From: Candidatus Gastranaerophilales bacterium
GTDB lineage: Bacteria > Cyanobacteriota > Vampirovibrionia > Gastranaerophilales > Gastranaerophilaceae
NCBI GenBank assembly: GCA_944323195.1
Contig: CALURR010000005.1
Location: 1 to 64,000 of the forward strand
Direction: 5' to 3'
Length of the DNA stretch: 64,000 nt
Shown here: one piece after another, positions 14,842-32,459 of the stretch
Layout: every line of letters starts with the position of its first letter
Numbering within the stretch: the stretch's first letter is position 1
Position numbers and translations under genes: made by a program
The notes under the pieces: model-generated
Database searches by the model: none
What the model saw: the letters and a program-made list of their open reading frames with translations, nothing else
What the model was told of the DNA's origin: nothing

Positions 14842-16293
14842 TTATATTTTGCCTAAAATAGTCAATTTGTAATCAGAAGCAATTTCTTCATAGCAAACAA
14901 CAGGAATATCCATAAATAGTTGAGAAACAAGAATGAAGATGATTTGCCTGTATTGTTGCGGAACAATTAAAACAGCGCTTTGATTTATTAAATCTTCTTT
15001 TGTTTCTTTTAGTATTTTTTTGAATTTAGAAAACTTGGATAAATCTATTTTAACGCTGGATTCTTCGTTATTAGTTTGTTTTTCCAATAAATCCAAGGTA
15101 TCATCATCTATTTCATAAGCAAAAATCTCTTTATCTTTATTGGCAATACTTTGAGAAATCTGCCTTGATAGTGCCATTCTTAATTTGTCTAATAAATCTG
15201 CTTTATTTGAATCATCAGAAAAATCATTTAATTTTTCAAAAATATAAACAATGTCTTTTATGCTTACTTTTTCTCTGATTAATTGGCTTAAAAGGTACTT
15301 TAATTCTGAAATACTTATGTAGTCGCCTAAAATTGTGTCTGTTAAAAATGAATTTTGATTGCTGACAAATTCAACATATCTGTTTAAATCATTATAATCA
15401 AATATTTCATCAACATGCGAAATTGCATAATAACTTAAATAATTTGCTATGTATTCTGTAGGCTCAATTCCTTCTACCCAAAAGTTTTCGCATTGGTTTT
15501 TTTCAATCCAAATTATTTTTCTTTTTGTTAGAGGGTCTTTTGTTTTGTATGAATTTTTTGGTGGTTTATCCATATTTAGTTCATCTTCAAAAAAGGCAAG
15601 ATGATTGGGATATGCTTTTGAATTTACTACACTTACACCATGGATATTAATTGAAAAATCATATGCATCTAAGGATGTGTTTTCAATAAATTGAACTTTT
15701 GGGATGATATAGCCAAGTTCATGGGTTAATTCTTGTCTTATTTTTACAGTTTGCGATAAAAGATTTTTTTCAATTTTTGGGTCGCAAAGAGAATAATTTT
15801 CGCTAGAAAGACTTATTGAAAGTTTTTCTTCGCCTAAGAATTTTGCCATTTTAGACGGTGCTAAAACATCTTTTAAATCTTTTTTTAAATTATTTAATTC
15901 GTCAATATCTTTTTTAATTTCGTCATTTAAAATTTCTCTTTCTTCATCTTTTGAAGTTTCAAGAAATTTTTTAACTCGTTCAATTTTGTCTTTTTTATCT
16001 CTAATTTTTTTCTGTAAATTTAGACAAAGTTCATAGGGTTCTTCTTTTGAATAAAGCATTTTTTCAACAGAATTTCTGAAGTTGATTATGTCATCATTAT
16101 TTTCTTCTTCTTGGTTTTCAACTTCTTTTGTAAATATACAGTTGTAGACAATTTTTGAATTTTGTTCTGCTTCATAAATTGAATATAATTCCCATCCTGA
16201 GACAGACATCGCATTCAATGTATTTTCCAGTAAAAGAGCATCTTCTGTCGGGATTTGTTTAATTGAATATTCTTGTCTAAATTGTTTCATCAT
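14842..16293 (-). CDS. Soluble FlhA cytoplasmic-domain paralogue with DUF4177-like N terminus
   Basis: A 483-aa protein without membrane segments. Residues 1-57 look like a DUF4177 domain (NAMSVSGWELYSIYEAEQ, ending in VYNCIFTKE). Residues 70-150 are a charged coiled coil. From about 165 to the end the sequence follows the cytoplasmic domain of FlhA/SctV, the nine-subunit docking ring of the flagellar type III export gate. ELGYIIPKVQF matches DLGYIIPNIRI of the FlhA at 30375-32459, LIREKVSIKDIVYIFEKL matches LIREKVSIKDVIFIFERL, and the last 40 residues align with its terminal subdomain. All eight FlhA membrane helices are missing. An export-substrate or chaperone decoy, adaptor or regulator is inferred only. 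Two ATG codons stand at the start. Confidence 0.8.
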   Translation of the reverse strand: MMKQFRQEYSIKQIPTEDALLLENTLNAMSVSGWELYSIYEAEQNSKIVYNCIFTKEVENQEEENNDDIINFRNSVEKMLYSKEEPYELCLNLQKKIRDKKDKIERVKKFLETSKDEEREILNDEIKKDIDELNNLKKDLKDVLAPSKMAKFLGEEKLSISLSSENYSLCDPKIEKNLLSQTVKIRQELTHELGYIIPKVQFIENTSLDAYDFSINIHGVSVVNSKAYPNHLAFFEDELNMDKPPKNSYKTKDPLTKRKIIWIEKNQCENFWVEGIEPTEYIANYLSYYAISHVDEIFDYNDLNRYVEFVSNQNSFLTDTILGDYISISELKYLLSQLIREKVSIKDIVYIFEKLNDFSDDSNKADLLDKLRMALSRQISQSIANKDKEIFAYEIDDDTLDLLEKQTNNEESSVKIDLSKFSKFKKILKETKEDLINQSAVLIVPQQYRQIIFILVSQLFMDIPVVCYEEIASDYKLTILGKI

Positions 16294-16337
16294 ATATTTA
16301 GTTTAACATTATAAAAATTTTTTTAAAGTGTTTATTT

Positions 16338-16685
16338 TTATTCATCCAAGACAGTTTCGTCAATAATTTCGTCTGTTGAATTTTCATCTTTTTTTTCAGA
16401 TTTATTTTTGAATTTTTTTTGAGATTGCTCTTTTTCTTTTAGGGTTTTCATAAGCATAATTGAGCCGGCATTTGCCATAGCAAGACCGTTCAGAGATGCA
16501 CGAAGCTGGGCAGATCTGTCCTGAAATACTTCTTTGTGTTCTTGGATTTCTTCTTCTGCCATTTCTTGAGCAAAATATTCCCCGCCTTGTCCCATTTTTT
16601 CATCGGACATTTTATTTGCCATAGCGGAGCCGTCACTTGCATTAAAATAACCGCTAACGGGGCTTATACCTCTGTTGTCGACCAT
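16338..16685 (-). CDS. Hypothetical protein, 115 aa
   Basis: A soluble, mostly helical protein. The N terminus is glycine/serine-rich, the central part (about 45-85) is alanine/glutamate-rich helix, and the tail is charged and probably disordered. A GAGGG ribosome binding site lies seven bases before the ATG, with an extended -10 (TGC-TATTAT) further upstream. It precedes the FlhA-C paralogue by 44 bases on the same strand and may be co-expressed with it. I recognise no family. Confidence 0.5.
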   Translation of the reverse strand: MVDNRGISPVSGYFNASDGSAMANKMSDEKMGQGGEYFAQEMAEEEIQEHKEVFQDRSAQLRASLNGLAMANAGSIMLMKTLKEKEQSQKKFKNKSEKKDENSTDEIIDETVLDE

Positions 16686-25696: not shown

Positions 25697-25843
25697 CTTT
25701 TTATAAAAAAATAATTAAATATTAAATGTCTTACAATTCCCTTTTGAAATAATTTTTAACTACATTAAATGTATGATTTTTTAAAATCTGATTTAACAAT
25801 AATTAATTAAGGTCGAAAACAATTGAAGGGGATAAAGGTAAAA

Positions 25844-26503
25844 ATGTTTAGTCCGCAAATACAAAATTATATAAATTCTTCTTCGCAAGCTCAGGCGTTT
25901 AATCGTGTTAATGAGCTTAATCGTTATATTAATTCTATTTATCCTCAAACCCCCGAAACCAGTAAAGCCTCTGCTTTTGATGAAATTTTAGCTGAATCAA
26001 AAAAAGAAGTTGAGTCTAATAGTGTTTTTGAACTTGATACTCCTCCAATGGTAAAAGAAGATATTAAAACTCTTCCTTTTGGTTCTTTAAGCGGTTTAAA
26101 AAGAACTCAAAGCAAGGTTTCAAGTACCAAAGAAGCAATTTTGGGTTATATAAAAGAAGCAAGTGAAAAATATAATGTTGATGAGAAATTAATTAAAGCC
26201 TTGATAAAACAAGAATCTAATTTTAATCCAAATGCTGTTTCATTAGCAGGAGCAAAAGGATTAATGCAATTAATGCCTCAAACGGCAAAATCTTTGGGAG
26301 TAATGAATTCTTTTAATCCAAAAGAAAATATAGAAGGCGGAGTTAAATATTTAAAACAAATGCTTGATAAATATAATGGAAATAAAATTTTAGCCCTTGC
26401 AGCTTATAATGCAGGCCCTGGGGCGGTTGATAAATATAACGGTATTCCGCCTTATAAAGAAACTCAAAATTATGTTAAATCTGTGCTAGCTAATTATCTA
26501 TAA
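25844..26503 (+). CDS. Lytic transglycosylase (SLT domain)
   Basis: Cleaves peptidoglycan glycan strands. The C-terminal half is an SLT domain: catalytic glutamate E124 in IKQESNFNP, then [33 protein letters not shown] and [28 protein letters not shown]. The N-terminal 100 residues are polar and probably disordered, and no signal peptide is evident. Lying directly before fliE, it probably opens the cell wall for the flagellar rod, and it could be exported by the flagellar system itself. The ATG at 25844 has AAAGG before it and is preferred to the TTG at 25823. Confidence 0.88.
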
Positions 26504-26514
26504 GGAATAGAAAA

Positions 26515-26823
26515 ATGGATAAAATAAATCAAGTAAATTTTTTTAGAACAAATCGCCTAGAGCCTTTAGAGGCAAATATTTCAATAGATTCTAATGATAC
26601 AAATGTTAAAAGTTTTAAAAATGTTGTGGCTGATATGATGAGTGAATTAAATGAAGTTACAAATAAGCCTCAACAATTAACGCAAGACGCAATGTTAGGA
26701 AAAGCTGATGTACATGATGTTATGGCAGCCATTGCGCAAAGTGAGATTACTGTGCAAGCTGCAACAACAATAACAGGTAAAATCCTACAAACATATGAGA
26801 AAATAATGCAAATACAGATTTAG
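26515..26823 (+). CDS. fliE: Flagellar hook-basal body complex protein FliE
   Basis: Rod-base protein joining the MS ring to the rod. The 102-aa sequence has the family's C-terminal part: DAMLGKADVHDVMAAIAQSEITVQAATTITGKILQTYEKIMQIQI, here read in pieces DVHDVMAAIAQSEI and QTYEKIMQIQI. The N terminus is variable as usual. It follows the transglycosylase by 11 bases with an AAGGAA site, and precedes fliF, the order found in many flagellar operons. Confidence 0.93.
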   Translation: MDKINQVNFFRTNRLEPLEANISIDSNDTNVKSFKNVVADMMSELNEVTNKPQQLTQDAMLGKADVHDVMAAIAQSEITVQAATTITGKILQTYEKIMQIQI

Positions 26824-28609: not shown

Positions 28610-29563
28610 ATGGCAGATACAGATGTAAAAACATTTAATTTTGAAGCTTTTGCCAAAGACTTGTCTAGTCAAGCAAGTCAGGTTATTCCTAATGATATTT
28701 CGAAGCAAGATAAGTCTTTTATTGTTGAAATAATTTATCGGTTTTGCACTATGGCAGGAGATGCCTTGGTTAAAGAAGAAAATTCAAAACTAAGCGCTCA
28801 AGAAGCCAGTCTTGTTACGCAATTTATTGGAGAGTGGATATTTCATAAGTCCATTGATTTGATTAGAGCGAAAATTGATCCTCAATATAGAGAAGGGGTT
28901 TTACAGAAGGTCGCTTTCACTGTATTTGACATAGCCAAGAAAGCTGTTGAAAAACAAATCCCTCAAGAACAATTAATATCATTGGTTGAGGCTCAAGTAA
29001 AAAAATCTTTCACAAAAGCAATGGAAGATTTGAAAAATAGAGGTGTAATATCTGAAGAAATTACTAAAAATGCTCTTTCTCAGTCAAACATAGACGCTAT
29101 GGCTCAGGAACAAATGAAAGAAGAGACCATGGCTGATATTGCTTGTATGAGTGATGAAAAAATAATTAAGCTTGCGTCTTTAGCCATTTTAATGAAAAAT
29201 TTTTCAAGCGAAAAAATGAAAAGCATATTGCAAAAATTCAATAAACCCGAGCGTGAGGTATTGATTAAATATTTAAAAATGCCGGATTTAGAAGAAAAAT
29301 TGGATACTAAGGCCACTATGAGGTGTTTTGAAGAAATGAAAAATGCATTGCCTGAGACAGTTACAATAAGTTATGATAAAGCGTATAAAAAAATGTGTAA
29401 AATTGTTAAAAATTCGGATAAAAACCAAATTTTGAATATTATAGAAAATGAAAGACCTAATGTTAAGGAATATGTTTTATCTTGTTATAATCAAAAAAGA
29501 AAAAAAATTCCTGCCTACATTGCAGATGTCATATCTAAATATTTAGAAGAAAACGCTTCATGA
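28610..29563 (+). CDS. Divergent protein at the fliG position
   Basis: Gene order fliF-X-fliH predicts the rotor switch protein FliG. This 317-aa all-helical protein has the right size, but I cannot see the clear FliG-M EHPQTIA motif or the FliG-C torque helix. Segments such as DEKIIKLASLAILMKNFSSEKM and IIENERPNVKEYVL could be remote versions of FliG repeats. The gene overlaps fliH by four bases, so it belongs to the operon. A strongly diverged FliG is the best reading, but a different FliF-binding protein is possible. Confidence 0.5.
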   Translation: MADTDVKTFNFEAFAKDLSSQASQVIPNDISKQDKSFIVEIIYRFCTMAGDALVKEENSKLSAQEASLVTQFIGEWIFHKSIDLIRAKIDPQYREGVLQKVAFTVFDIAKKAVEKQIPQEQLISLVEAQVKKSFTKAMEDLKNRGVISEEITKNALSQSNIDAMAQEQMKEETMADIACMSDEKIIKLASLAILMKNFSSEKMKSILQKFNKPEREVLIKYLKMPDLEEKLDTKATMRCFEEMKNALPETVTISYDKAYKKMCKIVKNSDKNQILNIIENERPNVKEYVLSCYNQKRKKIPAYIADVISKYLEENAS

Positions 29564-30372
29564 TAATAAGAAAACAAAATATTCAAAATAAGAAATCACA
29601 ACAGTCTTCCTCTAATAAGCCTTCTAAAAAAGGAAATATTATAAAAAAAGAAGACTTAATTTCTGATGTTGAAAATATCTTAGAAAATAATGAAGAAGTT
29701 GAGCCAAAGGCGCCTATTCAAAAGCCAAAAGTAAAAGAAGAAGTAGTTGCTGAAACTTTTGAAAAAATTGATATTTCATCAATTGAATTTAAAGAAAGGG
29801 TTGAAAGAAGAAGAGGTGACAGAAGAAGAGGCTATAGAAGGATTGATGAAAGGTCTTTGGTTTCAAGAGCTCAGCAAGAAGCTCATTCTATTAAAGAATT
29901 AGCTGCCAGAGAAGGTTATCAAAATGGTTTAAAAAAGGCTCAAAATGAGATTGAAGAAATAAAAAATTCATTGTCTGAGTTTTTATCTTTAAGAGATGAA
30001 ATGTATGATGAGTTTTATCCTCATATAATGGAAATAGCTATGGAAGTGGCTAAAAAAATTATTAAAAAGGAAGTAGACTTATCACAAGATGTTCTAAAAA
30101 ATATCATTGAGTCTGTATTAGATGAAATTCATTCAGATTGTGAAAAAGTAACAATTAAAGTTAATCCTGATGATGTTGAATTTGCTTCTGCGTCATTACC
30201 TGAAATTTTGAACAGTAAAAATGTGAGCGCAAAGGTTAATGTTGTTGGTGATGAAATAATAGAAAAAGGAAGTTGCGCCGTTGTAGCCAATAATGGCGTT
30301 ATAGATGCTAATTTTAAAACGCAATTGGCAGTTTTGCAAAGCGCGTTTGGTATTTATAAAGGAGGGGTTTAA
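29560..30372 (+). CDS. fliH: Flagellar export ATPase regulator FliH
   Basis: Stator-like regulator of the FliI export ATPase, linking it to the C ring. The 270-aa protein has a charged, disordered N terminus with an arginine-rich patch (ERRRGDRRRGYRRIDER, about 83-99) and a coiled-coil middle. The C-terminal FliH/HrpE domain follows (MEIAMEVAKKIIKKEVDL, about 158-175, then VTIKVNPDDVEFA). fliI is not in the window. The start overlaps the preceding stop in an ATGA-type junction. Confidence 0.88.
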   Translation: MIIRKQNIQNKKSQQSSSNKPSKKGNIIKKEDLISDVENILENNEEVEPKAPIQKPKVKEEVVAETFEKIDISSIEFKERVERRRGDRRRGYRRIDERSLVSRAQQEAHSIKELAAREGYQNGLKKAQNEIEEIKNSLSEFLSLRDEMYDEFYPHIMEIAMEVAKKIIKKEVDLSQDVLKNIIESVLDEIHSDCEKVTIKVNPDDVEFASASLPEILNSKNVSAKVNVVGDEIIEKGSCAVVANNGVIDANFKTQLAVLQSAFGIYKGGV

Positions 30373-30377
30373 AATTG
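30358..30377 (+). promoter_or_regulatory. Strong ribosome binding site selecting a TTG start for flhA
   Basis: AAAGGAGGGG (30358-30367) lies within the end of fliH and eight bases before TTG at 30375. No in-frame ATG follows soon enough to replace it, and the N-terminal membrane helix is complete only from this TTG. Confidence 0.7.
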
Positions 30378-32459
30378 GCAGCTCCTCAACAAAATTCTAA
30401 TCCAGTTTCAGAAATTGCTCTTGCCGGTTTTGTCATTGTTCTGATATTAATCTTATTGTTAGAAATGCCAAACTGGGTAATCAATTTTTCAATCAGTTTC
30501 AATATTACTCTTGGAATTGTTTTGTTGATGATTTCCTTGTATGTCAATAAGCCTCTTGAATTGGCGGCTTTTCCATCTATTCTTTTGATTGGGACTGTGT
30601 TTAGGCTTGTTTTATCTATTGCTTCAACTCGTTTGATTTTAGCAAAAGGTGATGCCGGACAAGTTGTTGAAGCTTTTGGGCATTTCGTTACAGGCGGTAA
30701 CATGGTTGTTGGTGGTGTAATTTTCTTAATTATCACTGTTGTACAATTTATGGTAATTACAAAAGGTGCTGAACGTATTGCTGAAGTTTCAGCCAGATTT
30801 GCGCTGGATGCTATGCCTGGTAAGCAAATGACAATTGATGCCGATTTTAATGCCGGATTAATTTCTCCTGAAGAAGCTGTCAAAAGGCGTGAAGATTTGC
30901 AAAGAGAATCAAGCTTATATGGTTCAATGGATGGTGCTATGAAGTTTGTTAAAGGTGATACTATAGCTGGTATCATCATTACTTTAATCAATATCATAGG
31001 TGGTTTGATTATTGGTATTTTATTAAACGGCATGGCTCCTGCTGACGCTGTTCAAAAATATACAATATTAACTATTGGTGATGGTTTGGCAGCTCAAGTT
31101 CCGTCATTATTAATGGCTATTTCATCAGGTATAGTGATGACTCGTGCAACCGGCGGCGGAGTTGCTTTGGGGTCTGATTTGGCTGTTGAAATTTTATCTA
31201 AACCTACAAGTTTGTTCTTGGCTTCAGGGTTTTTGATTTTAATTGCACTAACATCAGGTGTAACAGGCTTGCCTTGGTTCCCGTTTTTGGTTTTTGCAGC
31301 AATTTTGATTTGCGGTGGTTTGTCTGTATTGGTTAATCAGGATGTTCAACAACAATTAGGACAATTAGACGCTGTTAAACAAAACATGCAAGATTTAGTT
31401 AATCCTAATAAAATGTATGAAAGATTGGGTGTGGATGTACTATCTTTACAAGTTGGTGCCGGGCTTTTGGTTATAGCAGATCCTGAACAAGATGGTCAAT
31501 TATTGGCAAAAATTGCAGCTTTAAGGCAAAGGGTTACTGATGATTTAGGTTATATTATTCCAAATATAAGAATTATGGATTCAAGCGCTATCGGTGATAA
31601 CGAATATTTGATTTCAATTCGTGGTAATCCAGTTGCAACAGGAACGGTATACCCTGGGAAATTGATGGTTATAGCTGACCAATATGACGCGTTAGGAAAA
31701 AAATTGCCTGAAAATGCTATTGTTTCAGTTGAACCAACATTCCAATCTCAAGCATATTGGTTAAACCCTCAGCATATAGGTAAAAATGATAAAATTCAAG
31801 CAGTTGATGCTGTGGATGTAATTGTAACGCACTTGCAAGAGTGTGTTCGTAAGTATGTTGATGAGATAATGACAAAAACTGATGTATTGAAATTAATGGA
31901 GCTTGTTAAATCCCAAGACCCAACATTGGTTAATGATCTTGTTCCGACAATTATTTCAACATCAGATTTAAGAAAGATTTTTGTAAATCTTATTAGAGAA
32001 AAAGTTTCAATAAAAGACGTTATTTTTATCTTTGAAAGATTGTGTGATTATGCAAGATTTTCAAAAGAGCCCGATATTTTATCTGAACGATTAAGGGCGG
32101 CATTAGGCAGACAAATTTGCTTATCTAACGTGAATAAAGAAAAGGTTTTATATGCGTTGACTTTATCATCAGAATGGGAAAAAACCCTTGATGACAGTTG
32201 TCAAAGAACTGAATTGGGTACAATGTTTTTATTAAACCCAATGCAAGTTCAAGAGCTTATTGAATCAACTGCAAATACTCTTATGAGGGCACAGAGCGCT
32301 GTTGGAGTTCAGCCTGTAATATTGTGTTCTCCAAGGATTAGATTGCCGCTATATCAAATGTTAGAGCGTCATATACCAACTATTGTCGTAATTTCATATT
32401 CTGAATTAATAACTGATATTAGGGTTGAAGCAATTGATACTATTGGAGAAGGATATTAG
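30375..32459 (+). CDS. flhA: Flagellar export gate protein FlhA
   Basis: Membrane gate of the flagellar type III secretion system. Residues about 1-325 hold eight membrane helices with the FHIPEP-family segments FPSILLIGTVFRLVLSIAST and RFALDAMPGKQMTIDADFNAG. Residues about 345-694 are the cytoplasmic domain that forms a nonamer ring docking chaperone-substrate complexes. The start is a TTG with a very strong ribosome binding site. This cytoplasmic domain is the clear relative of the free protein at 14842-16293. The length of 694 aa is normal. Confidence 0.96.
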   Translation: MAAPQQNSNPVSEIALAGFVIVLILILLLEMPNWVINFSISFNITLGIVLLMISLYVNKPLELAAFPSILLIGTVFRLVLSIASTRLILAKGDAGQVVEAFGHFVTGGNMVVGGVIFLIITVVQFMVITKGAERIAEVSARFALDAMPGKQMTIDADFNAGLISPEEAVKRREDLQRESSLYGSMDGAMKFVKGDTIAGIIITLINIIGGLIIGILLNGMAPADAVQKYTILTIGDGLAAQVPSLLMAISSGIVMTRATGGGVALGSDLAVEILSKPTSLFLASGFLILIALTSGVTGLPWFPFLVFAAILICGGLSVLVNQDVQQQLGQLDAVKQNMQDLVNPNKMYERLGVDVLSLQVGAGLLVIADPEQDGQLLAKIAALRQRVTDDLGYIIPNIRIMDSSAIGDNEYLISIRGNPVATGTVYPGKLMVIADQYDALGKKLPENAIVSVEPTFQSQAYWLNPQHIGKNDKIQAVDAVDVIVTHLQECVRKYVDEIMTKTDVLKLMELVKSQDPTLVNDLVPTIISTSDLRKIFVNLIREKVSIKDVIFIFERLCDYARFSKEPDILSERLRAALGRQICLSNVNKEKVLYALTLSSEWEKTLDDSCQRTELGTMFLLNPMQVQELIESTANTLMRAQSAVGVQPVILCSPRIRLPLYQMLERHIPTIVVISYSELITDIRVEAIDTIGEGY

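Follow-up and report, generated by a model that had tools for sequence, protein, structure and literature searches.

FlhA is known as a gate in the membrane, and chaperones dock on its cytoplasmic ring. To our knowledge, DUF4177 itself has no functional description. The roles in FlhA of the dimple residues Asp-456, Phe-459 and Thr-490, and of Gly-368 in the GYXLI motif, have been reported (PMC8166844, PMC9431611), and non-motile Gastranaerophilales were earlier described with partial flagellar gene sets (PMC3787301, PMC4040986, PMC5877343). Here, we analysed a 64,000-nucleotide stretch of a Candidatus Gastranaerophilales genome (the window), which encodes a membrane-free protein corresponding to the cytoplasmic domain of FlhA (FlhA-C) that is kept across Gastranaerophilales and most likely derives from the gate lineage of a filament-less export system. 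We refer to this soluble FlhA-C paralogue as SOL, to the canonical flagellar protein as FlhA1 and to the full-length gate of the second system as FlhA2. The initial annotation knew of no described system of this shape, and we likewise found nothing resembling SOL in the open-access full-text literature.

Architecture of the soluble FlhA paralogue

SOL is encoded by an intact 483-codon open reading frame that includes no membrane domain. The gene and its surroundings comprise the following features:

14842-16293 (-): SOL, soluble FlhA-C paralogue, 483 aa (open reading frame, Pfam match, orthologues, AlphaFold model, Foldseek)
16300-16308 (-): TGTTAAACT, extended -10-like element, 7-15 nt ahead of the SOL start codon (read by eye)
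16114-16293 (-): SOL residues 1-60, DUF4177-like beta-alpha-beta-beta domain (PF13783 in 30 of 46 orthologues, and models)
15865-16038 (-): SOL residues 86-143, helical hairpin or coiled coil, continuing into the FlhA-type linker (models; FlhA2 linker alignment)
14845-15909 (-): SOL residues 129-483, FlhA linker and cytoplasmic domain D1-D4 (profile, fold, alignment), with chaperone dimple and GYXLI unconserved

Residues 129-475 match positions 321-656 of the 657 in the FHIPEP profile (Pfam PF00771; 165 bits, E 3e-48, cut-off 29.1 bits), a match that comprises the linker and the whole cytoplasmic domain. With the match beginning at profile position 321, the membrane domain of about eight gate helices was not found in SOL, and the sole hydrophobic window of the protein is located at residue 449, within D4. 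SOL scores below the cut-offs of both the flagellar FlhA equivalog TIGR01398 (156.3 bits; cut-off 772.1) and the injectisome SctV family TIGR01399 (93.2 bits; cut-off 692.25). Structure prediction, initially suggested as a check, yielded an AlphaFold model built on 24 orthologues (mean pLDDT 79.5) that matches FlhA-C. In a Foldseek search of this model against the PDB, FlhA-C ranked first across D1-D4 (6ch1, E 2.1e-21), the FliT-FliD complex 6ch2 was matched with a TM-score of 0.84 by target, and SctV-C structures were also recovered. The profile and fold matches bear out the original description of SOL as a free-standing FlhA cytoplasmic domain.

The front end is modelled as a strand (residues 5-15), a helix (19-31) and two further strands (35-44 and 47-59), followed by long helices at 86-113 and 116-144 that agree with the coiled coil proposed behind the front domain. 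DUF4177 (PF13783) is the commonest Pfam match of the orthologous N-termini, albeit a weak one (30/46, best E 1.3e-4), and is found in 13 of the 24 full-length SOL members, while the window protein itself gives no PF13783 match at E<=5. The DUF4177-like label, already applied in the initial annotation, is thus reasonable, though its support is weak. Searching the PDB with the fold of the N-terminal domain returned nothing significant (best E 0.014), and KCTD5, dodecin, NikR and ACT-like folds were rejected as its identity, these matches all being non-significant. Just 5' of the SOL start, TGTTAAAAT or a similar -10-like element can be read by eye in most same-genus orthologues, and SOL appears to have its own promoter-like sequence. 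Directly upstream lies a gene for a 115-aa protein of no recognised family (16338-16685, (-)), which is kept only in close species.

The second flagellar-type export system

The source genome holds three FHIPEP genes. SOL had been described as a paralogue outside the flagellar operon, which holds, but the full-length flhA noted alongside it in the window (30375-32459) is not the flagellar gate, the canonical flhA being located on a separate contig (C59) where it adjoins fliR and flhB in the order fliR-flhB-flhA. The canonical FlhA1 scores 848.5 bits, above the TIGR01398 cut-off of 772.1 (NCBIfam), whereas the full-length protein of the window falls under both NCBIfam cut-offs (FlhA, 684.8 vs 772.1; SctV, 588.1 vs 692.25). 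The latter is FlhA2 of a second flagellar-type export system, encoded in the following gene run:

25823-26503 (+): lytic transglycosylase SLT (PF01464, E 3.6e-36), in the same order in genomes G040 and G029
26515-26823 (+): FliE-like protein, 102 aa, homologous to the FliE-like proteins of L178, L214, L216 and L218
26872-28584 (+): FliF2 ring protein (PF01514, E 4e-36)
28610-29563 (+): G-position protein, at the position of FliG but not FliG (no Pfam match below E 0.1)
29560-30372 (+): FliH2 (PF02108, E 1.7e-21)
30375-32459 (+): FlhA2, full-length gate and nearest relative group of SOL (profile, NCBIfam, tree, alignment)

The FliE-like proteins of L214 and L216 match PF02049. The G-position protein is conserved, and its identification as a divergent FliG was rejected (hhalign probability against FliG, 0.6%). 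FlhB2 and FliP2 are encoded away from this run, and the second-system operon of G040 additionally carries two FlgE/F/G-type rod proteins, FlgB, FlgC and FliI. Most genomes encode two FlhB and two FliF proteins, and those without canonical FlhA as a rule one of each; of 16 genomes tested, FliM is absent and a single FliP present in the ten that lack canonical FlhA. Our analysis indicates that the gene sets read as partial flagella in non-motile Gastranaerophilales include a second export system that is distinct and kept across the order, also in genomes that have lost flagella, and not only decayed flagella. A sigma-70-family gene adjoins FlhB2 in two distant genomes (L213:9021-9683(-) and L215:10185-10850(+)), and it is possible that this gene is a dedicated regulator of the second system.

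Distribution and ancestry of SOL

In the genome collection, 351 stretches were confirmed as relatives, of which the best 80 were kept, and the named records are mostly Candidatus Gastranaerophilales. The search for co-occurrence in related genomes, proposed at the outset, found single-copy SOL genes nearly throughout this order, and the architecture is shared by 20+ genera. Orthologues are 478-506 aa long, some being partial matches, either in divergent genomes or where a contig ends, and among the order genomes searched SOL is missing only from G029, G030 and the incomplete G054; many of the sampled genomes are draft MAGs, in which a single absence may reflect an assembly gap. Outside the order, the same-class genomes tested yielded no SOL, only FlhAs of full length or short pieces of such a protein. 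Judging by dN/dS ratios of 0.04-0.06 between close species, in which D3 and the N-terminal domain are the slowest-changing parts, SOL is under purifying selection. D4 diverges fast (29% identity within SOL). No gene neighbourhood of SOL is conserved across genera, and common neighbours are confined to close species.

In a co-occurrence sample of 80 genomes, canonical FlhA (scored at ~870 bits) is present in 36 and flagellin in 37, namely the same 36 and G027. SOL is retained in 42 of the 44 genomes without flagellar FlhA (exceptions G029 and G030), and so is full FlhA2 (exceptions G117 and G272); 43 of these 44 also lack flagellin. SOL is independent of the flagellum: on this distribution a flagellar role was rejected, and the earlier proposal that it competes with the export gate is disfavoured for the flagellar one. 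Both G029 and G030 encode FlhA2, and the second-system operon of G029 looks intact despite the absence of SOL. Since SOL is lacking from these two lineages, one of them with an intact-looking operon, the core apparatus does not strictly need it. SOL is also present in G272, where FlhA2 was undetected, and in G117, where full FlhA2 is missing. As nearly all genomes have both SOL and FlhA2, their co-occurrence allows no statistical test.

A tree of 72 FHIPEP proteins, including SOL, FlhA2, fusions and flagellar FlhA, recovered SOL as one clade (100/100) that groups with FlhA2, the FlhA fusions and a single FlhA from a related lineage in the class, with flagellar FlhA apart (99/97). Support for the join between SOL and the fusion proteins is only 94/86, and SOL sits on a long branch (1.15). 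SOL is more similar to FlhA2 than to FlhA1 in all four subdomains (D3, 37% vs 26%), and its linker and D3 motif (LIREKVSIKDI..IFE) is FlhA2-like. The LIREKVSIKD part, noted from the outset, is indeed present and near letter-identical in FlhA2. Because of the tree grouping, the subdomain identities and this shared motif, we infer that SOL most likely goes back to a duplicated FlhA2-type gene in which a new front end took the place of the channel.

Further derivatives of FlhA-C were detected. A 694-aa fusion in two genomes (L220:5893-7977(-) and L286:586-2670(+)) joins the N-domain of the G-position protein, hydrophobic segments and FlhA-C, and a 995-aa fusion in G350 (L221:5697-8684(+)) contains the same parts followed by a FliI-type ATPase (ATP-synt_ab PF00006, E 1.9e-38; T3SS ATPase C-terminal domain PF18269, E 7e-14). 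A related 574-aa fusion of the G-position N-domain and FlhA-C lacks subdomain D2 (L291:805-2529(-)), and other members of that genus encode similar fusions. Hydrophobic segments being present, the G-position/FlhA-C fusions are not soluble, but they place FlhA-C derivatives physically with parts of the second system. Another, non-Gastranaerophilales class of the same phylum encodes, in one genus only, an HTH_17 DNA-binding domain fused to FlhA-C (PF12728, E 4e-13; L171:6765-8018(+) and L173:7315-8556(-)) on a branch separate from SOL. This class also encodes a nearly bare FlhA-C protein (L172) and soluble FlhA-C proteins whose helical front end of 200 residues matches no recognised family (L162:7629-9410(-), L164:7126-8892(-) and L165:7769-9637(-)). 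Since the helical-front-end group nests among the full-length FlhAs of its own class in the 72-row tree, it arose independently. The other soluble or fused FlhA-C proteins, including HTH-FlhA-C and the FlhA-C-ATPase fusion, arose separately.

Docking surface, possible functions and known systems

The chaperone pocket was compared in an alignment of 24 SOL, 11 FlhA1 and 14 FlhA2 rows. Position 459 is aromatic in all 25 FlhA1 and FlhA2 rows and in none of the SOL rows. FlhA1 keeps Phe-459 and Thr-490 throughout (11/11), and FlhA2 has Phe or Tyr at 459 and Thr or Ser at 490 (14/14) together with the hinge glycine Gly-368. SOL retains Asp-456 in 23/24 rows, but Thr-490 in none: 5/24 have Ser at this site and the remaining rows other residues, three residues are deleted ahead of it, and Gly-368 of GYXLI is gone from 24/24. 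The loss of the dimple and the GYXLI hinge speaks against chaperone binding or storage by SOL, although that of Phe-459 is not decisive since this residue is missing from some full-length FlhAs as well as from the other class's soluble FlhA-C proteins. The linker and D3 motifs, which are relevant to the nine-fold ring, are retained in SOL.

Based on these comparisons, we propose that SOL is a cytosolic, membrane-free FlhA2 paralogue and a putative accessory ring subunit of the second export system, a reading that we give about an even chance. It probably serves this undescribed machine, and not the flagellum, as an accessory part. Through the surfaces that it retains on the linker, D1 and D3, SOL could form a ring or join one, which would sit under, or mix into, the nine-fold FlhA2 ring, and as a non-docking subunit it may control gate access or gate state. 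The beta-alpha-beta-beta domain and coiled coil would serve as an oligomerising or partner-binding handle. The tree, subdomain identities, co-occurrence, pocket loss, fusions and dN/dS (0.04-0.06) count for this explanation; a SOL neighbourhood untied to the second system, the exceptions G029, G030, G117 and G272, the 94/86 join and the long branch count against it.

SOL could alternatively be a regulator, sensing a component of export (FliJ, FliH/FliI or a substrate) and acting back on gene expression or the ATPase complex. A lost docking dimple suits a sensor better than a platform, SOL lies apart from the apparatus genes with its own promoter-like sequence, and an HTH_17-FlhA-C fusion exists in another class (L171, L173). 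However, SOL has no DNA-binding domain and the HTH fusion is a separate branch of one genus, and we consider a regulatory role unlikely. Recruitment to a function outside type III export would fit the variable gene context, the fast D4 divergence, the novel front end and the two genomes with SOL in which intact FlhA2 was not found; it appears rather unlikely given that the D3 and linker motifs stay FlhA2-like and the order-wide distribution of SOL follows the second system. Quite improbable is the initially suggested function of holding chaperone-substrate complexes, as a platform or decoy for the flagellum or the second system: the fold matches FlhA-C structures including the FliT-FliD-bound 6ch2, and Asp-456 is mostly retained, but SOL persists in genomes without flagella and has lost the Phe-459/Thr-490 dimple and GYXLI glycine, the equivalents of which FlhA2 keeps. 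A broken remnant of full-length flhA would fit the absence of all membrane helices but has practically no chance of being correct, since full-length orthologues share the same architecture across 20+ genera at a dN/dS of ~0.05.

An order-wide, strongly selected FlhA-C copy without membrane part or docking pocket suggests a separable role of the ring domain, for which SOL would represent a natural separation of function. With a distinct second export system, the function of this system in common gut bacteria becomes a testable question. More broadly, we tentatively suggest, at well below even odds, that soluble FlhA-C proteins could be general, repeatedly evolved cytosolic controllers of flagellum-derived export systems, acting as free rings or sensors without chaperone docking and acquiring new partners (DUF4177-coiled coil, HTH, helical front end, G-position domain, export ATPase), with the Gastranaerophilales SOL controlling the undescribed filament-less machine.

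Compared with known systems, SOL shares with FlhA-C (PDB 6ch1, 3a5i, 3mix) the four-subdomain fold, the linker and invariant core residues including Arg-391, Gly-399, Trp-465, Glu-559, Arg-579, Arg-655 and Glu-676, whereas it carries a DUF4177-like domain and coiled coil in place of the FlhA membrane domain and has lost the dimple and GYXLI. The cytoplasmic domain of SctV/InvA/YscV has the same fold; SOL reaches 156 bits against FlhA but only 93 bits against SctV, and lacks the membrane part. DUF4177 (PF13783) gives a weak profile match in most SOL orthologues and is joined in SOL to a coiled coil and FlhA-C. The nearest group in the tree is FlhA2, which has the linker and D3 signature in common with SOL but, unlike it, possesses a full membrane channel, the dimple aromatic residue, Thr/Ser-490 and Gly-368.
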